From positions 3,044,205 to 3,108,204 of the forward strand of contig OX422197.1 of assembly GCA_949130485.1 (NCBI GenBank): 64,000 nucleotides of DNA. The letters are read 5' to 3'. Both the position numbers and the translations under genes were made by a program. This DNA comes from Agelas oroides. Its lineage: Eukaryota; Porifera; Demospongiae; Agelasida; Agelasidae. Below are positions 3,701-54,210 of this stretch, piece after piece. The notes beneath the pieces were generated by a model, which saw nothing but the letters and a program-made list of their open reading frames with translations, ran no database searches and was not told where the DNA came from. Each line of letters begins with the position of its first letter. Position 1 is the first letter of the stretch.

Positions 3701-6700
3701 AACAAGGCTGTATACACACAACTTGCAAACTGGATGTCCTATGAGTAACATGTAGTTGACGTGGGCATCAATGCTGTTTGTGGTGAATACTGGATAGTGT
3801 TTTGCATAGTGGGTGACAATCTTCCTGCCTTGATATACACAGTGGCATAGGAACCGTAGTGGCCGTAGCGGCTTTGGCCGCTACACTTTTTAGGCCACAA
3901 ATTAGTATTCATAGCCTGCTATAAGTTACTAATAGCTCAAGCTAGCCTTGTTCCCTGGGAACGAGGCCAAGCTCAAGCAGCCTCTTCATTGCATCAGTCT
4001 CATTTGCAGTTAGATGCGTTCATTTCCGCTTAACCCTTTGAATGTGGCAGCAATTTTATGTCATCATTAATTAACCGTGACAGCTGTTACACAATCAGCG
4101 TAACTACTCCGAGGTCAAAGTGTCAAGCGTTGCTTAGCAAGCCCTAGGAGTAGCCAGTGGCCTGATTTGCATGAACAGTGCATAACTAGGCTGGACTACT
4201 AGGTAAGCTGTTTGTGCTTGTTTGAAGCCATTTTGCGCATGGCTATACTCGCATGGCTATACTCGCAACTTACCAGCGTTTTGAAACAGTGCCAATTTTC
4301 TCACTTGGTACCTACAGCTCCGACAGAGTCAGCCAATTTAAAAGTTATTTGAAGGAAGTACTTATGTTTAAACTGGAGGCTTCCTTTGTTTGGGAAAAAG
4401 CTTCGTGTTTTGCAGCCCTTGGCCAAATCACGATCGATCACGAAGTAGTACTGCCCCTTCCTGCTTTTCCTGGATAGAAAGTGAAAAGGCGTGGTCTCAA
4501 CAATTACCACTAAATAAAAAGGGATTTACCCAAAGAGCCGCAAGGCTTCGCTTCTTTGCACAGTAGTGGCCCAAATGTAACAGGCGTATAAATACTCCTA
4601 TCACGCTCACAGGAAGTAAAGATCGGGTGTATATATTTGATGGGTAAGAAGGCAATATGGCTGGATATTGCACGAGTATGTGGCCGTATTTTTACGAGCC
4701 GTAGGTGAGTGAAAATACAGCACAAGAGTGCAATATCCAGCCATATTGCCTTCTCACACATCAAATATACTACTCTGATTTAGCAGCACCTAGATGATAG
4801 ACAGCTACTGCGCATGTGCAGTACAAAGGTCGTTGCTGCATGCATATTTAATGAGCTTCAGGCTGCTGGCCTGTTTCTAGCTTTGGACAGCACCAGCACG
4901 CGTAGCAAACCCTCTACCAGTGGAAGAAAGTACCATAAGTTAGTAAATAATGCCATCTTCATCCGTTTATTTGTTGTTTCAGCAGTGGCTACGAGTGCAT
5001 TCCAATTAAAGCACATGCCGCGGTTGCTACGCAGCATATGCCCTGCAGGCTATCGAATACGAACTATTGAATATGGGAAAATATTAGTCATGTTGCTCTA
5101 TAGGAAATATTATTGGCGCGTATACTAGGTATCATGGCGTACGGTAGTACGCCATATGTAGGGATGACCCCGAAAATAAATGGCCGCCACATTAAAAGTG
5201 CACAAATAACACGCTCGAAATGTCTTCGTTAGATTAGTCAAAGGCCTGTATGAGCCATATCAGGCATTATCGAGTATTTTCATGAGTAAAAAGACTGTTA
5301 AGTTTGCTGGAAAGTATCGCTAAGCACCAGACCGGCAAGTCGCCAAAACAGACAAATCGTCTATCTTCTGACTTTCTTTCTTCTTCTTCTTCTTCTGCCT
5401 CTCACCGCGATAGCACCATAACGGCTGGAGCTTTTACAACGATTCAAACGCAAAACAACAGGATAAATCACTAGGTATTGCACCTGCCACTTATCGGTCT
5501 AAAAGAAAGAACTCAAACTTGTCGGTGATTCCCAGGTAATCTCACACTTACGCTAGCTGCTACACACCATTTTGCTCGAATTAAATATTACTCATAATTA
5601 CGTCACCAGGGTTCAACTGAGCACGTGGTTCAGTACTTTGTAGAGAAGGTGAGAATTGAGCGTTGCATTTTGCAAATCTGATTTCGTGGATCAGTTGACG
5701 TAGTTGTGCTGCACTTTACATCGAACGCAATATGCGTAATGTCCGCAAGAAACGAGCGCAGTACAAGCAGAACTACCTGCGAAACAAAGGGGGAAAAAAG
5801 GCAATCGTCCCGTAATAATTACTGGAAGGACCCGGAGAAACACAGGGTATCTTCCCGGGCGTTCTCCCATGCCTGTTATTGGAAGGACCCTGAGACGAAA
5901 AGGGCGTCCTCCCATGCCTGTTATTGGAAGGACCCTGAGACGAAAAGGGTGTCCTCCCATGCCTGTTATTGGAAGGACCCTGAGACGAAAAGGGCGTCCT
6001 CCCATACCCGTTATTGGGAGGACCCTGAGACCAAAAGGGCATCTTCCAGGGCATCCTCCCATACCCGTTATTGGGAGGACCCTGAGAAAGGAAGGGCAGC
6101 TTCCCGCATATCCTCCCATAGTTGTTATTGGAGGAACCCTGACAAAAAAAGGGCAGCAGCTCGTATGACTAATTTGAAGGCTGCAAAAGCCAAGCTCAAG
6201 TGGTATAGACGGTACTATGCCAGCTAGTGTTTTAACCATCAAGTACTTCATATGACTTAGAACACTAGCCACTGATATTCAATTTCAAGTTTTATTGTCA
6301 ACTTTCACATTTCAAAGTTGCTTGTTATAGTCATTTACATGCATATAGTACACATACAATGTTTACTGCGAGTTGATGGTAGCACTTTGGCTGGTGTCTT
6401 CTTAACATCCTCCTTTTGTGTTGTGCCTGAGTCTTCATATTCCTCCAACGAAGCAAGTGGCAGCCTATTGGTAGCTTGGTATACTCAAACTCTAGTAGCA
6501 CCGAGTCAATAGTGCATGGCTTCATTCCAAACTTCTGCACTAGAGGTGGCCACAGAACTGGCGGTTGTTCAGCTCCACAGACCCCTATGCGTTCGTTTCA
6601 AACCCATTTAGACTATAGCTACTCACCATCAAACAGTTCTGTAATGGGGTCTTACGACTCAATACTCTGGTGACAGTCTATGGAGAGTTTTTCGGTGAAC

Positions 6701-9700
6701 CCATTACTAGTCCACGTGAAATGAGCACAGGATTTATAAGCTTGCATGCGAAGCCTTATTAAACTCATCTGCTTTTCACTTGGTTTTTATGAGGCTTTGC
6801 TTGGACTGTACTTCTAAACCCCCTGAAGTTTGATGTTTGGATTGACGATTTCACTTCAAAGCGTTTGAATTTATGACAATTCTTAGCTCTTTCTACTATC
6901 ATACTGTACACACCATGCATCTTCCCCTCGGCCTACCCTCCCATGTCACTTCTCTCTTACCATTCCTAAACCAAAAAAAAACAAAGCAAACAAGTCACAA
7001 AAAAGTTTTCTCAATGAAAACAAGCACATGTAGGGATGGAACCCTCAAAAACCAACCAAACAAGATAGGAACAACACCACAATACTTTTACACCATCCCT
7101 ACATCTTGTGCCATTTTGCCAACCACGTACACCACAAAACCCTTCAAATTTAAGTTTTTAGGGTTTGTGCTTTTAGTTTAGTTATAGTTAGTTTTTATTT
7201 AGAAAATACTTTTGGTTTAGTTTAGTTCTAGTTTCCCAGTTTTACAAAATTTTTAGTTAGTTATAGTTTCAACCACTGAAACTCTAAAACCCCTTACTAA
7301 AAGGTATTTAGTTACACTTATTGTTGAAAACAGGCTGTATTCTGTTTTAGTACAGTTACGGTTTCTTCTTGTACGTCCTTGGACGTTTTAGTTACAGCCC
7401 CCAAGTTAGCAAGAAATTTAAGTTGCACTTTTGGTTAACTAAATTTTAAAAAGGCCATACTAAAATATATTTAGTTAAAGTTATAGCTAACTAAAACAAC
7501 ACTGCACACCAGCTACACCCACAAACCAACAAACAACCTTTCTCCCTACAACTAGCTACCTACCCCACAAACCCTTCAAACACACCACCATGTCGTTAAC
7601 TACAGACCGACCCAGTACTGCTCACACCACAGCCTTCACTTACAAGACAACCCTTACCTGCCATGCCCAGCAGCTACAAAAGCCCACAACATACGCAACC
7701 CACTCCAACATGCCACACAGACTCAGCACTGATCTTGCACCCCACAGCTTGTACATATTAAACTAGCTAACTATGCCTGCCACACTCAACCGTAACAAAA
7801 TTACAGCCACCCACAACACAACGCACTCTCCATACACAACAACGTGCACTACACACCCAGTACTGCTCGTTCCACAGGCTTCCATGCCCAAGACAACCCT
7901 TCTGTGCACACAAGTAACAAACACAATGCATAGTCGGCAAAATGGCACAAGATGTAGGGATGGTGTAAAAGTATTGTGGTGTTGTTCCTATCTTGTTTGG
8001 TTGGTTTTTGAGGGTTCCATCCCTACATGTGCTTGTTTTCATTGAGAAAACTTTTTTGTGACTTTATAATAGAAATGCCTATCGATCTCAAAGGGTTAAT
8101 GTACACTATAAAGCAATCAAAATCTTGGAGGTGAGATGGCTTGGTACGAGGCTAGTGCACATTTGCACAGAGACTACTACAAGCGACAAAAGCTGGGCGG
8201 TCTCCTGAGAACGACGACAAAGTCAGTATAATCTTGCTGTTTTCCACGTAAATTGAATATTTTACTGGACGGTTGGGAAGGTCTGAGAACGAGGCTAGAA
8301 TATTATACCCTTGAAAAATAGGCCTTATTTTTGCAGTCTAAAGGTGCATACTTTGAAAAAGTTCGCCGCCACGAGCGATTTTTTTTTTTCCACATTTTTT
8401 CTGCCACGCATTGTGCGGCACAGCATGGCCTCTACACTTAAAATTTGCTTCATATGCCTTTGATACAGCAGCACCAACAGATGGGGTTCAAGCCAAGACT
8501 GGAGCTTCCAAACCCTACAGGACCTGGTGTCCAAACTGTGCAGTTCCCCGTCCCCTCTGGGAAGTGTGGACTGGTCATTGGCAAAGGTATGTGGTGGTGG
8601 ATGCCAGTATATGAAGGGCTAAGAGTTCATAACAGTTGATTGAGCTGATGACATTCTGCCTGTGGAAGATGTATGCTCCCCCCTCTCCCCCCTCCCCCCC
8701 CTCTCCCCCCTCCCCCCCCCTCTCCCCCCTCCCCCCCCCTCTCCCCCCTCTCCAATCCCCCCCTCCCCCCCAGCTCTCTTGGCCTTAGTAATCTTTTTCT
8801 AACCCCTTCTGGTCTATGCAGTTTCTTCTTTGACCTCTTTAGTCCCGTTGCTGGTGCTTCTATTGGTAGAGCATATATTTCCAGCCAGTTCAATAGCACC
8901 GTGTACAATAGTCCCGTTGCTGGTGCTTCTATTGGTAGAGCATATATTTCCAGCCAGTTCAATAGCACCGTGTACAGTCACATGATATAGATAGGCCACT
9001 GAGTCGAGTTCTGGTGTTGACAGCTTCTATGTTTGTAAAGCTCTAGGCTGGACAGTGGATCACATATTCAGTGGATACAAGTTCTGGCGGTTTTACTAAT
9101 TATTTCGTGGTAGCTGTTGAGAGTGCCTTGCATGACTGGCTAACTAACTCAGTTTTTAATGTAGCATAAGAGTTTGGTCAATATATATATAACACCGAAG
9201 CACGTACTGTTCCAGAATCTACCAAAATGAGCTTTCCACGATTTAAACAAGTCTGTATCACAGTCCTTGGCCCGAGCTGGTTTCACAATACCCCATAGTA
9301 TGTGTTGTAGTCATAGTTTTATCACATGTAATGTCTATTCTTGGGCACTTTGCACCTTGGGTTCATTGCAATTATAACCAGATACAGTCCTTGCAGCTGT
9401 TTACATGTTAACATCATAAGCAATGTTTTCACTCTGAAGGTGGTGATACTATTCGTCAGCTGCAAGTGCAGTCTGGAGCCCACATTGAACTACATAGAGG
9501 CGCACAGCCGAACCCACATGAGAAGTTGTTCAACATCAGAGGTACTTGTGCATGTAATCCATAAGGGATCTTTCTTGCAGCATCAGTGTTGTAGCTAAAG
9601 CACGGGAGTGCAGCGGCCCCACAATGTGGGTCGATAATTTATTGCTTTTGAACGCAACAGCTAACTTTCGCCAGCATTTATCTCACGTCACAAGTAAGAT

Positions 9701-12700
9701 AAGATTACATGCTGAGGACCAGCATGTAGCTAAACTTCTCATATCCAAGAATCAGCACAAACTTCTTAGAGATACGTTAGTTCCAAGCATTGTAAGCTGG
9801 TGGGTAGGGTTTCAGCGATCATCAATTGATTGCCGACTGTACCCAGGAAGGACATGTTGAAAAGGCATCTGTAGGTGACTGGGGTTCGAAGAGCCCTTTG
9901 CTCCATAAACAAAATTCTGGTTAGATTACTGAGTATGCTTGTGTATTTATGTGAGTATTTATGCATAGTAAGCTAGCAAACTGTATTAACATCACAGTGA
10001 TAAATTCACTGGGATAAAACTTAAGCTACTAAGTGGTGATGTCTTCATGGTTACTCGTAGCATGTTGTGCGTAAATCAATCCTGGCTACTCTACTTGTGT
10101 GCACACAGGCAATCTCCAGCAAATTCAGCATGCTCAGCAACTCATACGACAGAAATGTGACATGATGGTGAGTTAATAGATGAAAAAGTAGTTATTAGTA
10201 ACTGGTGTAAATGTAGAATACTGTGGAGCAAGCCTGAACAAGCAATACAGAGCATCATCATTTGGCTAGCAAGGCTTTGGCAGTACATTACCAGCTCACA
10301 GCATACAGACCATGCATGTCTGTATAGCTACCAGGGATTACCACTGTCTACTTTCTGTAAGCAACCCATGCACAAGTTCTTGATAAAAGGATACAGGAGC
10401 ATTAGGCAGCTACACACAGTAAAGTCCCGCCTCCTGCTGGCCTCTGTTGTCTGTGAGTGCGAACACATTGTATGGCTTGCCAAGCATAGTCACAAATAGC
10501 AGAGGTGTCGAAAGTAAACAGCTATCAATCAAGCGGTAGAAGGATCTCTGCTGCCTTCTGCATTGTGTAAGTAGCCTAGTTTGTCTACACAACTGCTTGT
10601 GCCATGTGCAGTGCTTGCGCTTCATCTACTCAAACAGTTATCCTTCTGAAACACTTGACTTATTGGCTGCACTGCACTTGCTCCATCTTGATGCCATGCA
10701 GATTAGAGTGAAAGTCTTCCTTATTGTCCGTACCTGGCCACGCATGCTATTACATAAATTGTAGTGTAGCTGTATATACAGAACAACGTATGACAGAAAT
10801 ATATAGAGAGAGAAAATCCACCATTCAACTTGCTAGTGTGGGGCTCACTCAAGCTCGCCCCAATTATTGACCACATATTTTATGGTAAGAGAAACTAACA
10901 AGTGCATGTTACACTGTGCCTCCTTTAGGGTGGTCCCGGTGGATTTCCAGGACAGCAGATGCCTGGGTGAGTGTGTATGCTTGTAATGTACATGTATGTT
11001 GCTGTTGTGTTTATGACTGTCTTGCATTGACAAGAGGGTCAATTTTAGGATGTTTGACTAAGCTTCATCCCTTTCCACAGCATGCCCTACCAGCCTGGTC
11101 AAATGTACAATCCTCAGCAGGCAGCATTTGCTGGTGCCCAGGCAGCAGCTACACCCTGGGCTCAGTATCCTTACCAGCAGGCCTATGGTGCTGCTGCACA
11201 GGTAGGTCTGAGTTTCTTCATGCTGATGACTGACGGCTCTGTATTGTGTTTAACTTTGTAACTGTCAAGGCTTTAACGTGATGCATACATCTACATAATT
11301 ACCTGCGTTAAAGACTCATGGTCTCCAGTTTCACACACTGTTGAAGGCCAATATACTTGGCCTCTGGTATTGTAAAGCCATCCACACAGAAAATTTTCAA
11401 GTTGTAAAATGTCATAAGACAAATATTTTATGTTAAAAGTATGTAGAAGCAATGGGCTACGAAAATATTAACACCAAAATTTTTACATCAAGCATCAGTG
11501 AGCGCTGGCGTATGTATGTGAGGTGTGGCTGAGTTACATGTACTGCTGGCCAAAAACTTGCTGCATTTGAGGCTACCATTATGTAGGTCACTTGTGAGGC
11601 CGGTGAGTAGACAGCAACCCTGTGAGATGACCATCGAATCTTTGGATCTCAAAATGAATGCGCCGCACTAGCACGTAGTTTCGTATCCAGGACTTCTGAC
11701 CCTGGTATTGTTTTTGCTAGCAGTGCTTACCTTACAGGCGAGATAGAAACCAGCGATTTACTTTCACACAGTAATTTTCATTTCTCTAATTAGCTGTTGA
11801 TTGATTTTGGGGAGTTTAATTTTCGTTCGACTTACAAAATTATTTTAACACCAAATGTATGTTGTAAATAAATATACATAGATAATAGTATGTTTGATAA
11901 TGTTTCTTCTCTATCTCTTGTGCCAGCAACAAGCTACTGATCCAAGTGAGTTTATGAGCAATTATTGTTTGATTAATGCTTGAGCAAAATGGATGATCAT
12001 GACGAAAGTTGTGTTCATAGTGTGTGTGTGTCATTGATTTTGTCGACTAATGTAATGGTTTAGCTATACTGCAGCAGTTGGAGGTGAATGTATGATCAAC
12101 CAGTTCTAAAATCTCAACTATCTCTAGCTAAGTCCCTCTTAGTGCTCAAGTCCTGCTTGCTGCCTTACATTGTGTTGTTGTTGTGACCCATCCAGAACCT
12201 TTCACTCTTCTAAGGGCTTTCCTGCCTTTCACTGCATTTGTTTCCCTCTGCTGTGTTTTTGACCATTTTGGGTCCAGTGTGACTCTCTTAGCAGTTTAGT
12301 TTTGTTCTTCTTGACATAAATCTAACTTCTATGGTGATTTACGTGTTCTAGATGCTTACAGATGAATTTGAGCTGTAAAACTGTACTCAAGCACTCCTAA
12401 TCCAACTGTAGGGCTCAGACAGGCTTACACCACATATTGTTTTGCTTCTGGTAGCTGTACTGTCGTTTTAGCAACAAGCAAAGCAAAGAGTAGAGGAACT
12501 CCTAGTAGGAAAAGGTCTATCTTGGTGCATGGGTCTTTCAAGATCTTACAATTCACTTTTGGCTTTGTGCTTTTTTGCGAGTTTCACTGAAATAACAGTG
12601 TAAGTGTTGGTTGATTTGTGCTTTTGCAGGCCACCAAGCAGCATGGACTGCCTACTACCAACAGCTGTATGCTGCTCAGGCTCAGGCTCAGGCACAAGCA

Positions 12701-13115
12701 CAAGCACAAGCACAAGCTGGACAGCAAGGTATTGGCTCTCACCTGATTACAGTCCCACACTCCGATGCTTACAGAATTTAGCCTTAACTTTTTTTTGGTG
12801 TTTTGCTTATCTCAGCAGCAGCTCAGCCAGGACAGGGGCAGCCTGGGCAGGCATCAGGAGACCTGCAGTCTCAGTGGGCAGAATACTACCGGCAGCTTGG
12901 CTATGCTTACTATGGTGGCCAGCCAGGAGGAGCACAACAGGGAGGGGGACAACAATCTAGTCCAGGAGCAGGTGGTGGTGTCGGTGGTGGGCCTGGAGGC
13001 CCTGAGCCAAAGGTTTGCGTAGCGTCTATGTACACATTACTGCATGCATAGGTGGGTAGGTTTGGTGAAGTGACATGTGATTTGTGTGCATTGCTGTCTC
13101 TTTCCTTTGTAGTGA
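747..13115 (+). CDS. FUBP: Far-upstream-element-binding protein (FUBP/KHSRP-like), 3' part: KH3, KH4 and Tyr/Gln-rich tail
   Basis: This is a single-stranded nucleic-acid-binding regulator of transcription and RNA processing. Exons by splice signals and phase are 747-849, 1917-2011, 8469-8586, 9440-9541, 10109-10167, 10929-10966, 11081-11201, 11927-11945, 12630-12728 and 12816-13012. They total 951 nt, exactly 317 codons. Residues 1-66 form a KH domain with GXXG loop GRNG and resemble FUBP KH3. Residues about 90-159 form a second KH domain with loop GKGG and resemble KH4. The rest is Gly/Gln/Ala-rich and carries two tyrosine motifs (AWTAYYQQL and QWAEYYRQL), the hallmark of the FUBP activation tail. 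KH1, KH2 and the start codon are missing, so the gene enters from the left edge. After residue 317 either an intron leads straight to a TGA at 13113, or the exon reads on to a TAG at 13049. Family assignment is firm; FUBP1, FUBP3 and KHSRP cannot be separated here. Confidence 0.93.
1094..1475. mobile_element. pogo/Tigger-like MITE
   Basis: The ends are CAGTGGACCCTCACTTATCC and, on the right, GGATAAGTGAGTGTCTACTG, flanked by TA on both sides. The CAGTG terminus with a TA duplication is typical of pogo/Tigger elements. The 382 bp contain no transposase ORF, so it is non-autonomous. It lies in the FUBP intron between the two KH3 exons. Confidence 0.75.
2098..2290 (-). repeat. Dispersed repeat, copy 1 (inverted relative to copy 2 at 49.6 kb)
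   Basis: The reverse complement of this stretch matches 49574-49710 over the segments GTATGCTATCATGAAATGCT, CTTAGAGCCACCAT and GTTTATGGATACATT in the same order. No coding capacity is visible. The copies are diverged, with several small indels. Confidence 0.6.
3943..3969. mobile_element. 27-bp hairpin element, TAGCCTCG family, with 9-bp target duplication
   Basis: The element begins TAGCCTTGTTCCC and ends GGGAACGAGGCCA, so it is almost entirely an inverted repeat. It is flanked on both sides by the exact 9-mer AGCTCAAGC (3934-3942 and 3970-3978). The same termini and the same duplication length recur at 14780, 31342, 35139 and 38061. Confidence 0.75.
4627..4774. repeat. Foldback (hairpin) element with about 50-bp arms
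   Basis: The left arm contains GGCAATATGGCTGGATATTG and the right arm contains its reverse complement CAATATCCAGCCATATTGCC. The outer ends are TATATTTGATG and CATCAAATATA. The two arms are separated by about 45 bp. No ORF is present; it is probably a MITE, of unknown superfamily. Confidence 0.65.
5739..6227 (+). CDS. Tandem-repeat ORF built of about 15-residue CYWKDPETKRASSHA-like units
   Basis: This open frame of 162 codons starts at an ATG and ends TAG. Residues about 25-145 are eight imperfect copies of a 15-19 residue unit centred on YWKDPETKR, YWEDPE or YWRNPDKKR, encoded by 45-bp DNA repeats. The tail is basic (LKAAKAKLKWYRRYY). Trp, Asp-Pro and Lys-Arg are kept between units while other positions vary, which suggests some past selection on the protein. 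I recall similar Tyr-x-x-Asp-Pro-x-Lys-Lys-Arg repeats from transposon-associated proteins of sponges and cnidarians; that is memory and not proof. There is no neighbouring partner gene and it lies inside a FUBP intron. It could be a relic of a larger transposon protein. Confidence 0.5.
   Translation: MSARNERSTSRTTCETKGEKRQSSRNNYWKDPEKHRVSSRAFSHACYWKDPETKRASSHACYWKDPETKRVSSHACYWKDPETKRASSHTRYWEDPETKRASSRASSHTRYWEDPEKGRAASRISSHSCYWRNPDKKRAAARMTNLKAAKAKLKWYRRYYAS
6992..8064. mobile_element. Non-autonomous transposon with about 125-bp terminal inverted repeats
   Basis: Positions 6992-7128 and 7937-8064 are near-perfect reverse complements. The outer ends are AAGTCACAAAAAAGTTTTCT and AGAAAACTTTTTTGTGACTT. 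The interior is rich in CCACACAA-type and TTTAGTTATAGTT-type low-complexity sequence with no transposase. I could not find a clear target duplication. Apparent ORFs across the arms are mirror images of each other and are not genes. Confidence 0.75.
8673..8775. repeat. Polypyrimidine tract, C-rich with TCT interruptions
   Basis: A run of CCCCCCTCTCCCCCCTCCCC-type sequence occupies about 100 bp. It lies in the intron separating the two exons of KH4. The apparent poly-Pro and poly-Gly reading frames are artefacts of composition. Confidence 0.85.
8841..8978 (+). repeat. Tandem duplication, 69 bp x 2
   Basis: Two almost identical 69-bp units begin AGTCCCGTTGCTGGTGCTTC at 8841 and 8910. They differ at only one or two positions, so the duplication is recent. 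They are inside a FUBP intron, and the frame through them is not connected to the KH reading frame. Confidence 0.85.
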
Positions 13116-13570
13116 ACTGCGTTATGTTGATGCACTATTTTGCCAGTGACATTGCTATTTTGCACATGGTTCTCTGATGTTCTACTCGGACTTGCATATC
13201 CTGTTATTATAATGTACAACTCCTCTGTAAGATAGCCCTGTTTAAGTTTATTTTGTATCAGACTATAGGAAAAGTTGCCGGAAAAAGGTATATGATTACT
13301 TATGTATTACGCTTTTTTTTATTAGTGCTATAGTGATACTCATTAAACTTGGTAACTCTGTGTATTCACACTTGTGTTATGGTATAATATCCACTTCTTT
13401 TCGTCAGTTTGCATGCCCGTAGATATGAAGCACCGGTAGAGGAAAACGTGCACAAACAAAACCCCTTGCTGGTTGGTCACTACATGACATTACCAGGTGA
13501 TGGATTTTGATGACCATGGTGATACTGTATTTCCATGTAAGCCCCAAGCTCCTTTGGGGCTTGGGGAGGT

Positions 13571-14779: not shown

Positions 14780-15166
14780 TAGCCTCGTTCCCAGGCCGTT
14801 CCCGGCTCCAGTTTTGATCGCTTGCAGTATAAAAACGGAGGGGAAGGCCTGGGAGAAAGAGTCACGTGCGTGACGTCAGGTAGACGTGAGGGGGAGCGGT
14901 GCCCGACGAAGAATCTCGAGGTCCTTCTTGTAATATCTTGTCCAAGAACTTGAGACTGTAACATTCGAAAGACAGCGTCAATACAGCTCGTTGTATGAGA
15001 GACTCGAGGCTGATCAACGCAAAGTTTGTGAATTACAATGATCGGGCACCGCCCCCCTTCACGTCTACCTGACGTCACGCACGTGACTCTTTCTCCCAGG
15101 CCTTCCCCTCCATTTTTATACTGCGTGATCAAAACTGGAGCCGGGAATGGCCTGGGAACGAGGCTA
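14780..15166. mobile_element. 387-bp MITE, TAGCCTCG family, about 125-bp inverted repeats, 9-bp target duplication
   Basis: The ends are TAGCCTCGTTCCCAGGCC and GGCCTGGGAACGAGGCTA. Arms of about 125 bp match with a handful of mismatches around a 135-bp centre. The element is flanked by the exact 9-mer ACACATATT at 14771-14779 and 15167-15175. Long inverted repeats with a 9-bp duplication suggest a Mutator-like element, but no transposase is present to prove it. It is the largest and best-defined member of the TAGCCTCG family here. Confidence 0.9.
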
Positions 15167-19832: not shown

Positions 19833-27590
<7,758 letters not shown>

Positions 27591-30176: not shown

Positions 30177-33277
<3,101 letters not shown>

Positions 33278-36200
33278 TAACTGAACTAACAACTGATAAA
33301 CTAGCAACTAATGAATTAGCAATTACACAATCCAAACTAGCAACAAATTTGGAAACAGATGGCGTAGTTTGTGTTGTGTTTATTATTCTTATACAATTGC
33401 TGTGAATGAATGGGGGCTTGGAGAAGGCAGTGGCTACTATAGGTTCTCTGGAACTGATGCATGGCTTTATTAACCTCTCCTCACACCCATACCCAGCTCT
33501 CTGTTAGTACTGAAAATGCAGAGAGCTGAGTGGGAGCCTGGGAACAAGGCTACTGCTTAATATTGTCTGGAGCATTCTTTTTCTGAGTCTACCCACATGC
33601 ACTATTTACTCTATTTGTTGTGTTCATATATTGGCAAGAAATGTTAAGAAACAGACAATGCAAATATGTAGTTCATGTGGAAAACTGTGCACCTGTTGTG
33701 AGAGCACCACAAAATTTTCTACCACTAGTGTGGCCTACCACCAGTGAACCAGAGGTACATAGCAACTTGTTAAGGCTGAGAGAAGTTTCTTGCTTGTTAC
33801 AGGACATTGCAGAACACTAAAATAACTTGTAACAATGAAGTTTGTGCTAGTCCAGATACAACACACAACTGTGATCATATTCATTTTGATAACAATCACT
33901 GCCTATAGTCCACAGTCCACACTCAGCAATACAGTAAATGGTTGGTCAGTTGACTCACCATACACACCATGTGTGCAACACAAATTCACTAGTGTGGAGC
34001 TCACTTTATATGGTTATACTCTAGTGGAATATGGTTGTACCGAACAGAGCCCTCACAGTTTACAACCAGAATTTCTCCTATCCACTAATACATGATGGCT
34101 GTGAATTACGCTCTCTTTGTCAATGCTAGCGTGTTGACTGATCTACTACACTGCTACATATCACATGCCAATACCTGTTGGGTTAATTACACCCTTTGTT
34201 TAGCACATATTCTCTACTAGGTGCATGATTGCCAGTTACTGCTTAGACTCATAAGTGCATGCATTATAAACCAGAGTTTATGGTATTTCTCATTTTTGTA
34301 TCACAAGAAAATAAGGTGTCTTGTTTAGAATACAACGGCTGCACTGATAATTTGGTAGAAGTGTATTCAGACCATTTAGTGTTCTGATCAAAAGTGTCTA
34401 ATCTGTGAGATCATGCATGTGTCTCTCACAAAAATACCCCTACCTACTGGAGGAGTGGGTTTAGCATTTCTGCCTTGTGTACGCGCATGTATATATCTCT
34501 CCAAGTGCAGTCAGAGTTCATGAATTCGTAGTGGTGAAATGTACATGAAGGTGTAGCCTCATTCCCGGCCAGGGAATGAGGTTAATGAAGGTGCAGTGCT
34601 TATACATGTTAAGGTGGCGACTACTTCAGGGACAGTGTCCGATCATGTATAATGCGATACATCTAAGGCATGCAAATCACTTTATGCCTGAGTTGAATGA
34701 GACGATAGAAGGCATAGCTACATGGTCTACTGAACAGAATAGCTCGCAGCCTGCTAGGGTAAACAATATATACAGCCCTGAAAATGCCAAGACCACAATA
34801 TAGTAGTACGTCCGAAATTAAATTATACACCCGAGAATTCTACATTATGCCTCTTATGACTTAGGCCTCGCATAATTTGAAGTATACTTGCAGAAGCGAA
34901 ATATTTGTGTAAATCTGCATATGCATTTGCAATTAGTGTTTGAGACCCAAACACAAGATATTTTCCTCATGACTTTTTCACATGAATAGAAAAAGCTGCC
35001 AAGATTTACCTACAATCATAGCACTGGAGGTGACTTTTCGGCCACTCCAGACAATACACACACACGTTGACCTTTTGGTAGTGGCATGTGCTGATGAAAT
35101 TCATAGTGTGTCTGTCTACACTCAACTGTGCAAACATGTAGCCTCGTTCCCAGGCTCTCCCCACTAAGGAGGGGAGAGCCTGGGAATGAGGCTAGCAAAC
35201 ATGAACATTGTTATATAGTGGTTTCTCACTATGAATTCATGTTTGGACTTAGAGTGGGTGTGTTTGCAAAGTTCATGTCGAGAAAGGACAATATTGTTGG
35301 GCATGTTTTACAAAAAATAGTACGGAGATGTGTGCTGAGCTTTGACACACTTGCGTGCAGGCAATGTTCACCGGCCTACATTACCACAGTGCAGGTTGCC
35401 GTAGCTTTGAAATAGTATGCAAATATATGCAAATGTATGTTCACACACTCTTACTGCTTACCAGTTGTTAATTGTACTGCAGAGATGAGATGCATTAGCG
35501 GGCAGCCAGCAACTTGATACTGTGTAAGTAATCACTTGTAAGTGGAAAAAATTGTGCTAAGTTCATAATAAAGAACTTGTTCAACTGACCTTGAGCTACT
35601 GGCCAGAATACGTAGCTAACAGGCATTTTTTTCTAAAGCAGTGCAGTTACATCTATTTGTGCTCTCACACACATGCAATTGATTTCTGTTTTAGGCAAAC
35701 ATGCTATTAGCACATAACTTGACCTGCAGAATCAAAGTGGGCGTATTTCTGCAAGACACAGACTATAGTCCCTGCATCACACATATTCTGCCCTGGCTAA
35801 CTATCTGAGCATGTGTATATACACATACTTAGTTGTAAAACATGATGTGGACTGGCAAAGGCATGAAAGGTTTAATAGAAGTTATAAGTATAATTTATAC
35901 TTATAACTTAATCAAGTGGCATGTTATGGTACATTTGGTGTACGAATTCACAGCTAAATCAATGTGCTAAGTAAGTCATACATGACAATATATACATAGT
36001 TAGCTAGCAGGGTCCGCTGTCACACCATCTTGTTCCTAGACACTTACTTGGCAATGTGGTGAGTGTGTATCGACATTCACCGGCCTCATACTGAGGCCCT
36101 TCCTCTAAAAACATGGGTATGAGGCTGGACATGTGCTGACTCATTGTGGGACATTTACACACATCAGTACAATTTGGAGGTGCCTACCGTGATCGCAGTG

Positions 36201-36823: not shown

Positions 36824-41225
<4,402 letters not shown>

Positions 41226-43546: not shown

Positions 43547-43646
<100 letters not shown>

Positions 43647-44640: not shown

Positions 44641-45163
44641 TCCACTGAATAAAACACTTGTGGCGCTCAACTTACTGTTACATTATTCATGATGTAAGTT
44701 GGAAGTATTTGCAGCTAAATTTAGAACAATGTACTGGTACCTACAAATGTCAGCTGAGGTCCAAGGCCTAACTGTACCTTGTAGCACCCTCAGTGGTAGT
44801 GTGGTACGTAAACCAATTTTAATTGCAAGTATTGCAAGTAAAATCAGCTGATATAATCAGGCTGTAGCCAGAATGTTACAAACTCTAGCAATTCATCAGA
44901 ATGTCATGTCAAAATTTAGAGAACACATTAACAAAATTAATAACTGCTGAAGCGGGGTAAATTTGTATAATTGGTATCAACAACATAACTACACCGTGAT
45001 TAACAGTCTGCTATAGTATACGTAGTATGTATATAAGGTGTTGCATTGCCCTGATATGGAGCAAGAGTGGTGTCATGTTATATAAGCAGTCTTGGAATGC
45101 CCATACCTTCTCAACAGAGAACAATATTTTGCACGGCAGTACCATCAATAATGTAAAGTGCTT

Positions 45164-48100
45164 CTAAGGAATATCATCTGAACATGATGGATTGTAGTAC
45201 ATCTTCAATGATAGATTGCAATCTTGTTTTTCAATCAAATACTTGACTATGTGGTGATGACCACACTCAGCAGCATAGTTAAGAGGAGTTTTACCATACT
45301 GACCTGGAATGTTTTGGTCACAGTTTTGGTCAGAGATGAAAAACTGGATAATGTCCAAGTGCCCTTCCACTACTGCTAGATGTAGAGCAGTGTCATTGTT
45401 GGCATTTCTATTTGTTGGGTCGCAGTGTATCTCAAGAGTGAGAAACTTTACTATGTCTATGTGGCCCTTTTGTACTGCCATGTGAAGAGGAGTGTTCTGA
45501 CTAAAATCTCTACACATTGAGTCACAGTGTTTCTCAACAGTAAGGAACTTCACAATGTCCATGTGGCCCATTGCAGCAGCGCAGTGAAGTGGAGTGCATT
45601 TCAGGTCATCCAAACATGATGGATTGCAGCCTTGCTCATCAGTTAAATACTTGACTGTGTGCAGATGACCACACTCAGCAGCATGGTGAAGAGGAGCTCT
45701 ACCATATTGACCTGGAATGTTTGGGTCACAGTTCTGATCTGAGATAAAGAATTTAAGTATTTCCAAGTGCCCTTCCACTACTGCTAGATGTAGAGCAGTG
45801 TCATTGTTGATAATTCTACTTGTTGGGTCGCAGTGCATCTCAAGAGTGAGAAACTTTACTATGTCTATGTGGCCCTTTTGTACTGCCATGTGAAGAGGAG
45901 TGTTCTGACTAAAATCTCTACACATTGAGTCACAGTGCTTCTCCACAGTAAGGAACTTCACAATGTCCATGTGCCCTTTCATGGCAGCACGGTGAAGTGG
46001 AGTGCATCCCAGGTCATTCAAACACGATGGATTGCAGCCTTGTTCTTCAGTCAAGTGCATGACTACATGAAGATGACCAAACTCAGCAGCACGATGAAGA
46101 GGAGTTTGGCCATACTGACCTGGAATGTTTGGGTCACAGTTTTGATCCGAGATGAAAAATTTAACTATGTCCAAATGTCCATTGATTACTGCTACATGTA
46201 GAGCAGTGTCATTGTAAGCATTTCTACTCGTTGGGGCCCAGTTCATTTCAAGAGTGAGGAACTTCACTATGTTTACGTGACCATTTAGTGCTGCCATATG
46301 AAGAGGGGTGTTCGGATTAAAATCTGTCGTCAAGTCACATTGTTCTTCCACAGTAAGAAACTTCACAATGTCCATGTGCCCAATTGCAGCAGCACTGTGA
46401 AGTGGAGTGTACTTATGTTCATCCAAACATGATGGATTGCAGCCTTGCTCATCAGTTAAGTACTTGACTATGTGCAGATGACCACACTCAGCAGCATGGT
46501 GAAGAGGTGTTCTGCCATATTGACCTGAAATGTTTGGGTCACAGTTCCGATCTGAAGTGAAGAATTGGACAATGTCCAAATGCCCTTTTATTACTGCTAG
46601 ATGTAGAGGAGTGGATTTGTTGATATTCCTAATTTTAGGATCACACTGCATCTCAAATGTGAAGAACCTAACTATGTCTATATGACCATTTCGTGCTGCC
46701 ATGTGAAGAGGTGTGTTCTGATTAAAATCTCTACACATTGAATCACAATGCTTCTCTACAGCTAGGAATTTCACAATGTCCATGTGTCCCTTCATTGCTG
46801 CACAGTGTAATGGAGTGTACTTATGTTCATCCAAACATGATGAATTGCAGCCTTGATCATCAGTCAAATACTTGACTATGTGAAGATGACCAAACTGAGC
46901 AGCATAGTGAAGAGGAGTACCACCATACTGACCTGGAATGTTTGGGTCACAGTTCTGGTCAGAGATGAAGAATCTGAGTATGTCTAAGTGGCCATTCCAT
47001 GTTGCAGTGTGTAGAGGAGTGCTGTTCCATTTGTTCTTGAGGTCACTTGTAATTGGAGTGTATCTTTGAAGTTCTGAAGTAAGAAACTCAACAACAGCCT
47101 GACACCCACCTGCACAAGCTCTATGTAATGGATTGTTTCCAAATTCATCTTCACACAGTGGTTCCATCTGCTGTTCAATAACCAGAAACTTCACCACATC
47201 AAGATGACCTTGTTCACTAGCTAAATGAAGGGGTGTTAAGCCAAGTGGGCCTGGATATGCTGGGTTGCAGTTACTTTCAGTAATGAAGTACTTGAACACC
47301 TGCAGATTTCCTACTATTGCAGCCATGTGAAGAGCAGTAAAGCCATGCTGATCTCTCTGCATTGGGTTGCAGTGCTGCTTCTCAACAAAAAACCTGACAT
47401 CCTCCAGCTGTCCATTTGCTGCTGCACGGTGGAGTTTCAAACTACTTCCAGACATGCAGGAGGACACTGTTTCAGCAAGATCCTGCACTCTTAGTTCATA
47501 CTCTAGCTCCTCCAGCTCTTTGTCCAGAGGATCCTATTGTTACCAAAACAAAATGAGTAGCCACGTCAATGCAAAACCGTTGTAAAGGTATAATTATACA
47601 GAAGTCATGTATACTGGTTGCTGGTTGGATAATTGTGTTACCTCAGATAATGTAGTGCTCTTTCCACCTGTGAATACACTGAACCCAATGGCTGAATCTC
47701 TGTCAACATCAGGTTGAGACTTCTTTCCCACTGGTTCCTTAACGTCAACTTCTTCAACTGGGATAATTATTACAAGAACAATGACTATAACATTTGACTA
47801 GTACTATTTGTGGTGTCAGACTGTTAGGATATTAGCTAATAACCACACACCCCCCCCCCAAGATTTTGTGTCATTATTAAGTTGCAGTTTCTTTCACACT
47901 GGTTACAAAACTTCTGCTTCATCAATGTCAGAGGATCATGCATGTAAGGAAATCTGAATATGTGTTATATGGCTCTGACATAGAAAGCCACATGCACAAA
48001 CTTACCATTTGCAACAATAGCAGAATCTGGGAACTGATACTCTCCACATGCAAGTTTGATTACACCTTCGGCTTCCAGCATCCTCTCTTGTTCTCTGGAC

Positions 48101-49530
48101 AGTGGAAATATGCCCTGCTGTACACATGAAGCCACCTGGAATGTCAGCTTGACACAGCCCTCCTCTATTCGACAAAGACGTAGAATTCCTTGGGGTGAAA
48201 CACGTAGGATTTCACTTAGTTTATGACGAAAACCTTCAATCTCTGCAACAGTGTAATTGTCATATTGTGAGTCCACTTTCACAAATATATCAGCATGGTC
48301 AGCATCACTTACTGGCCCGAAATCTGGCAGGCATTCAAAGATTCTTCGCTTTGCATACTGATTAAAATCATCCTTGTATCTCTGTAGTCTATCTTTATCT
48401 TCCTCTGCGCCAAGTGTTTTTATGATGTGTTCAATTATGTGGTAGTTAAAAAAAGAAAAGTAGTCTTTTAGGATCAGGAAAACTTTTGGAATTTTATCTG
48501 TAGCTTCCAATTTTTGGAAGCAATATTGAAACAACGGCACTTGTGGCTCCTTGAATACAGGTTTAAATGCTCCTAAAGTCATGACACGAGACACCAACTT
48601 ATCGGACGACACATTTTGACTGATGAGAGACTCAATTGTTGCTGACACAAGCTCCTGGAATCTCATCATTATCTCTTGAGACTCAAACTGAAGCCTTCCC
48701 CTGAGATCCTGCTGCTGTTCATGGGTGAGTCCACTGAGATTGAGGTAGGGAAAAGAGCTTGCCGAGGGGATGGGTGTTGGACAGCCTCTCTGTATGAAGC
48801 TGAAAAATGTACATTTGCCACATCCACACCCAAACGGTGGCTTCTCAATTGGAGAGGGGCTGATACTATGCCTGTGCTTTGCTGCAATGGTAGAAGGGCT
48901 TTCTGAAATAACTGCATCAGCTGGAGCAACAGCAGGAGCTGTTTCTTTTGGATCTTGGATTATCCTCGTGTCTTGGCTTGGAACTTCTGCAGAAAATAAA
49001 GCACATGTTCTATCACATACTAGTGCACTGTTAGTCAGAGTAAATGTACCTTGGTGACACCTGGCTTCCACTGACTCATTAAAGCTGTTGTGGTTCTCTG
49101 GACCACAATACTGCTTTTCTATTTCCTCAGCCAACCGATTCTCACCAACACTGGAAGTGTTCAGCGCATCAACAAGATATCTCCAGGAGGGGGCAGTCAC
49201 CTTGCTCATCCAGTAATCAAGTGTATCACACAGCTTGTCCATTGAGTGACCTGATTTTTTGGCAAGATTTCTGAGTTCAAATGTTGGAACATCTAATTGC
49301 ACTCCAATTGTATACCACTTGTCACACACTGAATGCAGTGCATTGATGGCAGCTTTTAACGTCAGTGCTGTACCTGTGGAAGACTCTTCTGTCACATGTA
49401 TTTATAATTGCATACAATAAATGTGGAAGACTGCTGTCACATTTATTTACAGCTGTATACAATATATACTCAGCTGCTGTTTATTCCAATAGACTAATAG
49501 TAGGTCTAATATCCACACAATACCTTCCAT
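45164..49530 (-). CDS. Death-domain protein with 22 ankyrin repeats
   Basis: Exons read 49530-49524 (ATGGAAG), 49373-49050, 48986-48006, 47757-47642 and 47533-45164. They total 3798 nt, 1265 aa plus stop. The 63-nt intron 48987-49049 has good signals but is a multiple of three, so retention would also stay in frame. Residues about 5-95 resemble a Death domain (KWYTIGVQLDVP, LAKKSGHSMDKLC and SWRYLVDAL). A central region of about 300 residues has no named domain. A Glu-rich coiled stretch (DPLDKELEELEYELRV) precedes 22 ankyrin repeats with TPLHxAA and GHxDIVKF cores. It is likely an intracellular adaptor in innate or death signalling; that role is inferred from domains only. The frame extending upstream of 49373 begins with GTG and lacks an in-frame ATG, which is why I place the start in the small upstream exon. 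Confidence 0.85.
49392..49476 (+). repeat. Short tandem duplication upstream of the Death-domain exon
   Basis: CTGTCACATGTATTTATAAT and CTGTCACATTTATTTACAGC, each followed by a GTATACAATA-like segment, lie about 47 bp apart in direct orientation within the first intron of the Death-ankyrin gene. Confidence 0.6.
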
Positions 49531-49573
49531 CTTGGGAGGACCTGGATTCACTTCCACATCCCCCTAGCATTAG

Positions 49574-49710
49574 AGTATGCTATCATGAAATGCTTGAATT
49601 TGATTGGTCAGTGTGAGGGCTCTAAACCACTTAGAGCCACCATCCTCCAGGCATAGGGTAGACTTACATTTGTAACAACAATGTTGTTTATGGATACATT
49701 AAAAAAGTGT
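49574..49710 (+). repeat. Dispersed repeat, copy 2
   Basis: Matches the reverse complement of 2098-2290 (see copy 1). It starts about 45 bp upstream of the predicted first exon of the Death-ankyrin gene, so it may overlap that gene's promoter. Confidence 0.6.
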
Positions 49711-52700
49711 TGATAAAAACACAGTATTGTTGAAACAAAATAATTAGTTGCTACTGATGCAGAGGAATGTAAACATATCCCATAATGGTGCTGATATTCA
49801 AATTATGGTGGGAACAGTGCAGACGGACTGGTTCAGCTTTCAGGTTTGTGATAGTGTCACCCTGAGTTTCTTGACACACTGTCTTCGCCATTTATGCCAG
49901 AGTTTCATAGAATAGTCGGTGGTCTTTCCTTTCGCTCTGCTGCCTTGTTTTGGCGCAGACGCTGGTGCAGAAGGGTGTAACTTTCAGTTTGGTAGGTGAA
50001 GCTTGTTTCACCTTTCTTGTGCAGTAGACAAAAGTTTTGGCATCGTCCTGCAATCATTTGAATATCTCATTGCTAACATGTTCCATCTGCATTGGTTTGA
50101 AAAGTTGCATTATAGTGGCCGTATTTGTAGCATACTCTAAATAAGTTCCGCCAGTTGCAGTGCACCTTCCCAACCTAGTCTCGTTCCCAGACCCTCCCAA
50201 AAGGAGGGTCTGGATAAACAGGCTGGGATGGAAGTGTTCACTACGGAATGTTAGATTGCTGAGCCTTCTGTCACCAGTAGAGCCCTCAGCTGGACCAAAT
50301 AGTGTTCTAATCTTTCTGCTTGGTGTTCACAACTTTCTACAATGAAGTAAAACACAGCCGCCTGTGAAGATGACTCTTGTGCGGTTAGCATTTCCAATAA
50401 ACACACCTCAGAATGCTAATCAAAAGCCAATTGGAAGTGCACCTGCATACCAAGTGGAGTGTACACTTCCACCCCAGCCCGTTTATCAGACCCTCCTTTT
50501 CGATTTTTTGAGGATTTAGTTCTGAGACTATTGACAACCCTACCTCTCTCCTTCGGAACTGGTTACTACATTTATAGTACATGTACTCTCTCCTTCGGAA
50601 CTGGTTACTACATTTATAGTACATGTACTCTCTCCTTCAGCTTGGGCCAGGAATGCAGTAAATACTGCAGTATCACAACCCTACCTCTCTCCTTCGGAAC
50701 TGGTTACTACATTTATAGTACATGTACTCTCTCCTTCAGCTTGGGCCAGGAATGCAGTAAATACTGCAGTATCATAACAGAGCAACAAATGTCATGTAAC
50801 CCTTGAGCACCTGGGGTGTGTTATTTATGACCCCCCCAGGGCATTCCCCCGCCCCCCCCCCCACTATTATCTATGAATGGAACTGGTTACCACATTTACT
50901 AGTACATGAACTGGTAAGGCACTCTTGACTTGTAGGTTGAAAATGTTACTTGAAAAATTGATCTCAGAGGGTCTAAAGTTTCCTGGGCCCAAGCTCCAAA
51001 CCCCTGTATAGTTTGTGTATAAAGCACAGCAAACAGGAAGTTGTCCTACCCTTGTTCGCAGGCCTCTCAGAGCCGTACAAAGAGTTCAGTCACAGTCCAA
51101 GCAGTGAACACTGTGTGGGAACAAGACTAGTGATGTCTCCCCAAAGTTTTTAACCGTCAACTTTTGCCCCCTCTTGACAATTTTTCTAAGGGGCCAACAC
51201 ATTGTGGTACTAGTTCCGCCTGGGTTATTTGGATGACTGAAGCTATACTTTCTTGTAAAAGCGGCCGGGAAATTCACTTTAAATGTGGCTAACCTGTGTA
51301 GTGTTTCATCTGGTTAAAATGTTTGGGGGGGGAGGGAGTAATTGCACAGCACGAAGCACCTTGCGACTTTTTGGAGGGTGTAGCTCACTGCACTTTGCTA
51401 ATTAGTGAACACCAAGCTTCTAGTGGGATGTGGTTGAAGTTAGTTCTTAGCTTATTAAGCAACTAGTAAGATGTATTTGTGATTAAACAATTTCTATGCA
51501 GCATCCAACCTATGATGTAATGATAAAGTCAATCTCTTTGGGGAGGAGCTTCTCCCCTCCCCCTCCTGTAGATGAAACCCTGCTCAGACATGCCAAGGTT
51601 GAAAGGCTGAAATGCTGGTCACATGAATGAGGCTCCTCATGCTCAGTCAGTGGGGGGGTTGACAGTTTTACACGAATCAACAACATGGCATATGTATACC
51701 TGCTGTTTTTATTCTCCATCTTTTATTCTCCAAGTTTATTCAAATCACCCTGGAGCGAGCTTTGTATGACTAACAGAGCGCACTCATGGAGTTTTGAGAA
51801 GCACAGCTTCAAGCGTTATGTATATATAACTGAGTGTTATAAGCTTATTCACCAAAGGTTATTACAAGGCTGCTTTGTGTAGATGGATGTTGCTAATGCC
51901 GTCGCACCCCACTAGCTATAACATGCTGACGGGGAATTCAAAGTGTTGTGTGCCATCAGGACTTGACTTCGAAGGTTGGTGGCTTCGTTGTATGTTATCG
52001 TTTGCTCAATTATTTGCTTCGAGGGCATCGAGTTGCTGACATGGGCGCTCTTTTGTGGTTGTGGAAACACTTGAAAGAGCACCCACCTTTGGCAGACTTG
52101 TAAGGTGCTCCGCCCATGGGCACTCTTTCGCAAGACTACGGTAATATAATAAGGGTTCAAGGACCACAAACAAGAAGACCAGTTAGAAGGGCTATACGCT
52201 GATAGTTTATGCTTCTATCTATATCATATGGCTCTTACTATACTTTCAGAATCACACATGATGTGATGTATGCATTGCAGTTTGCTTAAGTCTCGTAAGT
52301 AGCTACATAGCTGTAAGCAAGAGTTGATGTCATGCTATAAGCTTATTAGCACAAATGTATTTGTTTAGCCACTATTAGTTGAATATTAGTTTCTCATCAG
52401 GGTCTTTTAAAGTTAATGTGGGCGGGGGGCCATTATAACATTATTCGTCGACTGCCAAAAAAAAGGGCTCCTGGACTCGACAGGCCACAAATCCTGTGAA
52501 AGATGCATGAAATGTAGCATCTGTGGGATGAGCGCTCTAACGTTTTCAGGAAGGAGACTTCTTTTGGCTGGTTGTCAGTACGCTCAAATCGACATGCAAC
52601 TTGCAGTACCGATGCATACAGAGCACAAAATCGAAAACTACACAATGATTTTTATAATGGGCCAGCGAAGCAGGGCCCAGCGGGCAGGAGGTGAGAAACT

Positions 52701-52976
52701 AATATGTAACAAATAGTGTGCCTTCTAATGATTCACATCCACGGTCCATATTAGGAAGCAAGTGAATCAGAAAATTCTATGGCAAAGCTATCTTACAACC
52801 AGTCTACCTCTACTGGTGCTATAAACTGCTCTCTTGGTTTTTAGAGCAGACAAAACTGACTAGATGTGGCACTGGAGAAGTCTCATGTGTATCCCATCCC
52901 AGTATATCCAATAAGCTAACCCCTTATTCATACATAAAGTAAAACATCAATATATCTATAAAGCTTTCTTACCTGT
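49711..52976. other. Interval between the Death-ankyrin gene and the small minus-strand gene
   Basis: No exon chain was recognised. A tandem array lies at 50537-50778. Old TAGTCTCG-type hairpins lie near 50178-50215 and 51048-51132. A C-rich run lies at 50830-50863. The remainder (51300-52970) shows nothing I can support. Confidence 0.55.
50537..50778 (+). repeat. Nested tandem repeat
   Basis: CTCTCCTTCGGAACTGGTTA followed by a TACATTTATAGTACATGTA block occurs three times. A longer unit that adds CAGCTTGGGCCAGGAATGCA and CAGTAAATACTGCAGTATCA occurs twice. Confidence 0.85.
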
Positions 52977-54210
52977 TCAGGAGAACACACAACTCCTGCC
53001 TTTCACAACCACAGTATCCAACACTTTGCCTCCATCATCAATGACCTTTTGTCCTGCAGGCCTATCACGTGATCCGCATGGGATTGGGTGAAAAGACAGC
53101 CTCCCGTTTAATTACACACCCAAAATGTTTTGACCCAATACAGTTCTGTTGCCAGAAAGTTCTGTTAAGGACGTATTTTCGGAACTGAATCAGTACCGCA
53201 GTAGCATCAGGACAGTATCAGATTAGTCTCGCAGGCCCGACCCATTTCCGCAAAAGAAGGGAAGGGTCTGGTGAACTGCGTGTACAAGCCGTGTCCCACC
53301 GGAATGCAATTAGCTGGATGACGTAACCAGATTTCGAATAATGCACTCTTGAATTACCTGTTGCGGAGTGCTCACGCTCCCCGAGAAGTATAGTCGAAGT
53401 GTTTTTAAAGCTTCTGCAGTAGCGGAAAAGATGCCCTAGCTCTCTTTCGCCGTTTTCGAGACTGCTATTGTTACTCAAACAGTGATGTAATGCGTCATGT
53501 GACAAAATACTGCAATGTGATTGTACCGCACTGTACAGTGCGGCAGGACACAGCTTGTATACGTTGTTCACCAGACCCTCTCCCTTCTCTAGCGGAAGTG
53601 GGTCGGGCTTGCGAGACTAGTATCAGATCAGTACGCACATAATCTGTATCAGACCTGTATGAATGGCATGTCTTAGGGCTGTTTTTGTAGAACTGATACA
53701 GATCCGATTTACAGTTCGGTGTCAGACCCGTTGCTTGCGTTTCCGCTGGGTACAGTACTACAGATCTGGATCAGATGGATTCCAGTTCTAATTCATCACG
53801 TAAAATTTCGCTGTGCATAGATTCTACAATGTGGCAACTGATCAGTGATCTTGTAGAAAACATAAGCTTACTTTTGGATGTCTCATTCATGGTTGAGTCA
53901 TGGAGGCTCTGCCCTTCGTAAATCGCTAAGTCTCGTAACAGGTCCGTAACACGGAAGTTTACGTATTTCCGTAAAAACCATCGAAAAATCACTCCCAGGT
54001 CTACTCACGTGGTTTGGTTGTGCTGGGATCCCGGCTGGGATCCAGGGTGGTGGCCTCGAACTGCCACTGGCGAGTCGGATCAGAAACATGGTTAGTCACT
54101 GCATGGATAATAACGTAACTGCGAAACTGTGGTGGTAACTGAACACCAGACTTGCTTGTAAACGACACTGGCACTTTCCAAACGTGAGTATGCCCCTTTA
54201 ATACCGCCAT
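52977..54210 (-). CDS. Small two-exon gene, 92 aa, unrecognised
   Basis: Exon 1 is 54210-54009, starting at ATG in a good context (CGCAATGAATGGCGG, using the second ATG) and ending in CAC before GTGAGTAG. Exon 2 is 53053-52977, after CCTGCAG, and ends TGA. Phases fit: 202 nt leaves one base and exon 2 supplies two. The total is 279 nt, 92 aa. The protein is hydrophilic with a beta-like N-terminus (HVWKVPVSFTSKSG, FRSYVIIHAVTNH) and a C-terminus GKVLDTVVVKGRSCVFS. There is no signal peptide or membrane segment. I do not recognise the family. Intron 1 carries a complete MITE. It is transcribed away from SKIV2L, so the two may share a promoter region. Further exons cannot be excluded. Confidence 0.5.
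53224..53619. mobile_element. 396-bp MITE, TAGTCTCG subtype, 9-bp target duplication
   Basis: The ends are TAGTCTCGCAGGCCCGACCC and GGGTCGGGCTTGCGAGACTA, with imperfect inverted repeats of about 74 bp. The exact 9-mer GTATCAGAT lies at 53215-53223 and 53620-53628. It lies in the intron of the small minus-strand gene, and ORFs over it are not genes. Confidence 0.88.

Follow-up and report, generated by a model that had tools for sequence, protein, structure and literature searches.

Short hairpins with 9-bp target duplications in the genome of the sponge Agelas oroides as probable remnants of longer transposons

AcademH DNA transposons were reportedly described by Kojima in 2020. They are presented as helicase-encoding DNA transposons (PMC10045372, PMC10799480), and one account gives them target site duplications (TSDs) of 9 or 10 bp along with the encoded helicase (PMC10045372). 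TSDs of 9 bp are also common in Mutator-like elements (MULEs) according to another source, which ascribes to Rehavkus elements a 9-bp TSD, a PHD-finger transposase and a minisatellite (PMC6446971). Excision of Stowaway/mariner elements is described as leaving a footprint of short element-end sequence and a small duplication at the donor site (PMC4561436). The current work concerns short hairpins in the genome of Agelas oroides (259.3 Mb in 141 contigs), which came to attention in a 64-kb stretch of contig C15 (positions 3044205-3108204, below “the window”). Their ends resemble TAGYCTCG (Y is C or T) and its complement, and 9-bp direct repeats flank them. We call the short units “stubs”.

The initial annotation of the window suggested three origins for the stubs: the ends alone could suffice for a Mutator-like transposase, repair after excision could leave such units, or some other mechanism could create the 9-bp duplications. 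We consider it likely that the hairpins derive from longer transposons with terminal inverted repeats. These copies would have been excised or broken, and microhomology-mediated joining over short tracts would have removed their interior and left the two tips and the TSD. Mobility of units of a few dozen bases is an improbable alternative. Identical tips with 9-bp duplications span lengths from 10.1 kb down to 16 bp, and identical joints that recur at unrelated sites coincide with the longest tip-proximal microhomologies.

Stubs and their longer relatives in the genome

Units of 16-76 bp with exact 8-bp ends are found at 4,597 places genome-wide, compared with 7 places for a reversed control. 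The corresponding numbers are 97 (control 1) for 16-24 bp, 1,407 (control 3) for 16-46 bp and 3,190 (control 4) for 47-76 bp; these counts include copies riding in larger repeats. The shortest perfect case (L029) is the 16-bp TAGTCTCGCGAGACTA, which consists of two 8-bp ends with no interior and has GGAGGAGAA on both sides.

From the genome listings 102 stub loci were taken and grouped into 70 independent sites. A laxer grouping, which gave 63 sites with 26 exact TSDs, was superseded because it merged distinct sites; the grouping used here may still merge two sites of a 40-bp stub (L077, L085). The TSD is exact at 9 bp in 30 of the 70 sites, at 8 bp in three and at 10 bp in one, and nine more sites have a 9-bp repeat with one mismatch and seven with two. 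Since the loci were partly picked for shortness or repetition, the 30 in 70 should not be read as an unbiased estimate for the genome. When left and right flanks of different sites were mispaired, none of the 4,830 combinations had an exact repeat of 6 bp or more, four had a repeat with at most one mismatch and 12 with at most two. The initial annotation had named duplications no more frequent than those of random hairpins as an argument against the family; this outcome was not observed, with 30 exact TSDs in 70 sites versus none in 4,830 mispaired combinations.

Two samples were also scored by themselves. The 18 places of 47-76 bp listed first for contig C1 (L100-L117; visible repeats and C1:1026350 were skipped) have exact repeats of 9 bp (four), 8 bp (two) and 10 bp (one), repeats with one mismatch (three) or two (two), or none (six). 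Eleven stub loci outside the 70 sites represent 10 sites, eight with an exact 9-bp TSD, one with a single mismatch and one with an 8-bp TSD.

A full-length relative with matching ends, for which the initial annotation had proposed a search, was found at C21:4555477-4565583 through a paralogous helicase match. It is 10,107 bp long, its 30-bp tips differ at one base, and its TSD CTTGCTTGC is exact. Domains were read over all but approximately 3 kb of this copy. One strand encodes a RecQ-like helicase (DEAD, 1.9e-15; Helicase_C, 9.2e-12; best PDB match DNA helicase Q1, 4.7e-15), and the other (minus) strand has two DUF6589 frames (4.2e-34 and 2.5e-11). Another long copy with these tips lies at C1:3610194-3616939; its duplication contains one mismatch, and a helicase match is located close to one of its ends. 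A 58-bp stub (L134) carries the tips of the 10.1-kb family itself, with the exact TSD CAGCCTTTG.

Frames adjoining the 10.1-kb element (L119:739-2474, minus strand) contain GCDYVSFFKGIGK, which we take to recall FEN/XPG nucleases, a likeness unsupported by Pfam, where these frames have no match. By eye, a similar repetitive frame (YWKDPETKR / PVIGRTLRRKG) is seen at window positions 5682-6278 and inside the 10.1-kb element (L119:4059-4484).

The exact 23-bp end TAGCCTCGTACCCAGGCCACGTG, which marks family G, occurs 312 times genome-wide, often as plus/minus pairs approximately 640 bp apart. Six parents, fetched because their ends lie at this distance, are 640-644 bp long, with an exact TSD in five and one mismatch in the sixth. 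Family G is short and non-autonomous and has inverted repeats, TSDs and many copies, as expected of miniature inverted-repeat transposable elements (MITEs). The parents hold approximately 96 codons of a DEAD-box helicase (DEAD, 2.5e-7; translation checked), and this helicase fragment has 151 matches. In the 640-bp MITE, as in the 10.1-kb copy, the distance from the tip to the helicase start is approximately 170 bp, so to judge from this layout family G probably arose by deletion from a related helicase-encoding element.

The first 100 of the 312 listed ends include 21 exact end pairs. Thirteen of these are full length (601-700 bp), six are 76 bp or shorter, one is 451 bp, and the remaining one is a longer copy of 1,891 bp. 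Thus the length distribution of family G has two peaks. Tandem arrays of 38-40-bp units resembling the G tip are present at two loci (L096, L097), i.e., a minisatellite grown from a transposon end.

Repeated stubs and their joints

Many stubs are repeated, and those considered first were fetched because they are identical. The 24-mer was grouped at 14 loci, including a 21-bp variant and a substituted copy, and these loci have their flanks in common. The flanks are likewise common within each kind of the 27-mer, the 41-mer (four loci), the 46-mer (three), two kinds of 53-mer, and the 57-, 75- and 45-mers (two loci each). Therefore these stubs were copied inside larger repeats, and we rejected them as mobile units of 24, 27, 41, 46, 53, 57, 75 or 45 bp. 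An empty site of the 24-mer carrier (flanks joined, at most three mismatches) was found at no place in the genome, which is uninformative. One locus (L013:5512-5576) has the tandem GGCCAGTTG-TAGTCTGGGAACAAGACTA-GGCCAGTTG-TAGTCTGGGAACAAGACTA-GGCCAGTTC, a 19-bp stub repeated together with its target.

Other stubs recur at unrelated sites and, taken alone, resemble products of transposition of tiny units. The palindromic 40-mer TAGCCTCGTACCCAGGCCACGTGGCCTGGGTACGAGGCTA is found at 43 places within three mismatches (reversed control 0), 12 of them exact. Each of the 12 exact copies occupies a site unrelated to the others. Exact and differing 9-bp TSDs flank 11 of them; in the remaining copy (L070), GGTTAACCC is present on either side, together with six extra bases, TAGCCC. 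Nine of ten one-mismatch 40-mers were examined, and their TSD is exact in four, has one mismatch in three and two mismatches in one, and is absent in one. The 32-mer is present at four loci representing three unrelated sites, the 18-mer TAGCCTCGTACGAGGCTA at two unrelated sites, and the 16-mer given above at three loci representing two unrelated sites. Their joints are at GGCC, GTAC and CTCGCGAG, respectively, each a palindrome of the respective tips.

The 40-mer is accounted for in the same way. The palindrome CCACGTGG is in both tips of family G and thus forms a direct repeat between the ends, and joining there gives the 40-mer. Family G stubs of up to 61 bp with one exact 23-bp G end were listed completely (37 places); they retain 9-45 nt of tip per side. 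Twelve are the 40-mer joined at this 8-bp motif, and three (two 56-mers and a 47-mer) use the 9-bp GTGGCCTGG; the 47-mer is the product predicted for one of the parents (L091). Another parent (L092) offers 395 possible end joints, only two of which, those of the 40-mer and the 56-mer, have homology of 5 bp or more. Four 56-mers, two with exact joints and two near variants, have four differing TSDs (three exact, one with a mismatch). They carry differing changes, one of which matches a parent (L093).

Copies in the window

All six intervals and all six 9-bp repeats given in the initial annotation proved exact on re-check. Its end motif TAG(C/T)CTCG is exact in some copies only; those at 3943-3969, 31342-31372, 35139-35194 and 38061-38097 depart from it by one or two letters at one end or both. 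The copies are as follows.

3943..3969, 27-bp stub; TSD AGCTCAAGC at 3934-3942 and 3970-3978; passenger in a dispersed repeat of approximately 200 bp
14780..15166, 387-bp MITE-like copy; inverted repeats of at least 40 bp without gaps; TSD ACACATATT
20099..22221, 2123-bp unit; 639-bp MITE with a nested repeat of approximately 1.48 kb; inverted repeats 95 bp; poly-C flanks
31342..31372, 31-bp stub; TSD CACCTTCAT; left end diverged
35139..35194, 56-bp stub; TSD GCAAACATG; similar 76-bp stub at C1:224059
38061..38097, 37-bp stub; TSD CTCAGCAGT; sister with an identical TSD at C1:10328552
38112..38200, 89-bp element; exact TAGCCTCG/CGAGGCTA ends; no intact 9-bp TSD
38201..38216, 16-bp CAGTCTCGCGAGACTA; two ends directly joined, one mismatch
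53224..53619, 396-bp MITE-like copy; TSD GTATCAGAT; 57-bp stub with similar tips at C1:1513723
57673..57989, 317-bp MITE-like copy; TSD AGGGCACTG; absent from the initial annotation

The window was scanned for TAGYCTCG-like end pairs with at most one mismatch per end and 16-6000 bp apart. Seven of the 113 pairs have an exact flanking repeat of 9 bp, and one each of 8, 10 and 11 bp; the lone match at the latter lengths is a poly-C tract, itself one of the seven. Two of the seven cases were new, 20099-22221 and 57673-57989, and the scan missed 31342-31372 because its left end is TAACCTCA. When 24 loci fetched around stubs (L001-L024) were added and up to two end mismatches in total were allowed, exact flanking repeats numbered 24 at 9 bp, one at 8 bp and one at 10 bp among 2,802 pairs.

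The 27-bp stub is a passenger here, since seven loci fetched for a near-identical 27-mer (L009-L015) match the window on both sides of it. The 37-bp locus was copied too, as its sister has the identical duplication. Lengths of 387 and 396 bp, as in two of the copies, are usual for MITEs. Copies found elsewhere (e.g., C16:4034760-4035394) correspond to bases 1-206 and 1691-2123 of the 2,123-bp unit; this unit was rejected as an autonomous element, being a MITE with a nested repeat, and its 9-bp TSD is uninformative because the flanks are poly-C. Elsewhere in the window, a 1221-aa frame (23806-27471, minus strand) appears by eye to belong to a non-LTR (long terminal repeat) retrotransposon, with endonuclease, reverse transcriptase and C-terminal zinc fingers.

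Origin of the stubs and comparison with known systems

The reading that we prefer would proceed as follows. A full-length element (10.1 kb) or its MITE derivative of approximately 640 bp would insert and create a 9-bp duplication. Later the copy would be excised or broken, and the site would be repaired with only approximately 9-45 bp kept per tip, often joined at a short microhomology. Transposase excision would make the break, and short-tract gap repair ended by microhomology-mediated joining would make the joint. Palindromic motifs would serve well as joints, because a palindrome in both tips is automatically a direct repeat. The length sample, although small, and the inner homology left unused among the 21 end pairs suggest that repair starts at the tips and extends inward by a few tens of bases. 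This is what interrupted gap repair would give, whereas resection would start from an internal break.

Several points weigh against collapse by microhomology-mediated repair. In 22 of the 37 family G stubs the joint is not at 8-9 bp of homology: eight have 0-2 bp, and 14 contain letters that no single parent among the six supplies from its two ends, be they substitutions, filler or sequence from other parents. Therefore microhomology is not the sole route. A deeper homology of the inverted repeats, 8-14 bp in the six parents and at least 10 bp in four, would give a product of approximately 115-124 bp, which is present in none of the 21 exact end pairs. A simple longest-homology rule would not predict this, and it fits collapse only if repair is confined to the tips. 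No duplication within two mismatches was found at 20 of the 70 stub sites. Finally, the basis is one genome of one individual, and the excision step is one that we infer.

Could the stubs of 16-60 bp be mobilised themselves, two tips without an interior being enough for the transposase? Such movement would give what is seen for the 40-mer (identical copies at 12 unrelated sites, with exact and differing 9-bp TSDs at 11 of these), the 32-mer (three sites) and the 18- and 16-mers (two sites each). However, the repeated products are those predicted by the tip-proximal microhomologies of the parents, the four 56-mers carry differing changes, one of them present in a sampled parent, and the flanks of the other identical stubs are common to each kind, which means that these stubs did not move independently. 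A unit of 16-19 bp would also hardly hold two transposase sites. We therefore regard this explanation as very unlikely: the suggestion that the ends alone suffice found no support, the repeated stubs being passengers or recurrent microhomology products of a longer parent, and the suggestion that repair leaves such stubs is supported. Least credible of all is a source in MULEs and their stubs. MULEs commonly have 9-bp TSDs (PMC6446971) and have at least 119 matches in the genome (150 of 194 candidates scored), but no match among those listed lies inside either long copy, and the five of the 119 loci that were sampled (L065-L069) have other ends or none, with no TAGYCTCG pair and 9-bp repeat spanning the MULE domain. 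Mutator is disfavoured for these reasons, and MULEs were rejected as the source; the relative with matching ends encodes a RecQ-like helicase and DUF6589. Two of the sampled MULE-coding loci (L066, L067) have perfect inverted repeats of 39 bp (GGGATTCGC...) and 30 bp, and represent other Mutator-like families in this genome.

No transposase would be needed if the interior were lost passively, through slippage during replication or processing of hairpins between short direct repeats. Inverted repeats can form hairpins and the recurrent joints sit at palindromic direct repeats, yet intermediate lengths (77-600 bp) make up one of the 21 exact end pairs versus six stubs and 13 full copies, and inner homology is unused. 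One stub with clear filler also points to break repair: a 42-bp stub with an exact TSD (L128) has approximately seven bases of filler of the type TTAGGG, which we take to be the host telomere repeat, and in another (L129) only three bases are foreign to the parental ends, in the context GGGTTAG. Slippage is thus quite unlikely as the general explanation; at some sites it may be compatible with the length, homology and filler data. Excision like that of P elements would cut with a fixed stagger, so that a set length of each tip stays at the donor site and is filled in and joined. The retained tips are indeed short, but in the family G list their length varies from 9 to 45 nt per side, and the 47-76-bp class (3,190 stubs) is larger than the 16-46-bp class (1,407), so no length cap is seen up to 76 bp; we find this explanation improbable. 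Somewhat less unlikely, though still doubtful, is an excision mode of the element's own, in which the helicase or transposase opens the tips, each donor flank keeps approximately 10-45 nt, and host repair joins them at the palindromes. Were it true, the scar left at a locus could be predicted from the tip palindromes, and thousands of independent outcomes, all from the repair of a single type of break, would be preserved in the genome.

If collapse after excision or breakage is the correct reading, this animal genome has naturally recorded the outcomes of very many break repairs in its stubs. The starting sequence, the product and the TSD are all readable, which would make microhomology choice and filler measurable without experiment. 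It would also caution against taking very short MITE-like units to be mobile because their target duplications are perfect. An abundant stub population would also be tied to a helicase-encoding element, away from Mutator. We recognised no description of such a stub population in the open-licence literature searched.

Judged by its domains, the 10.1-kb element with its RecQ-like helicase and DUF6589 would fit AcademH. Like AcademH, it encodes a helicase. AcademH duplications are of 9 or 10 bp; here they are mainly of 9 bp and occasionally of 8 or 10 bp, with an exact 9-bp TSD in the 10.1-kb copy and, among the stub sites, 30 exact TSDs of 9 bp and one of 10 bp. What differs is the second gene, DUF6589, a putative transposase unmatched to a named Academ reference. 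We presume that DUF6589 is the domain of the Academ-type DDD/E transposase; it is not named in the open-licence transposon literature searched. With Rehavkus the TSD length agrees and tandem arrays of 38-40-bp tip units exist as well, while the frames scanned of the 10.1-kb locus contain no PHD finger.

The short copies resemble MITEs in being non-autonomous and in their terminal inverted repeats, target duplications and high copy number. The usual size of MITEs exceeds that of most short copies here, which we read as repair products. As in Stowaway/mariner footprints, short end sequence and a small duplication are retained; the tips retained here measure approximately 9-45 nt per side. Interrupted (abortive) gap repair reportedly caused deletions in maize MuDR (Hsia and Schnable, 1996). 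Those internal deletions keep both ends, as the stubs do. In A. oroides, in contrast, the loss is often near-total, down to 16 bp and at very many places, and the identical joint recurs at unrelated sites.

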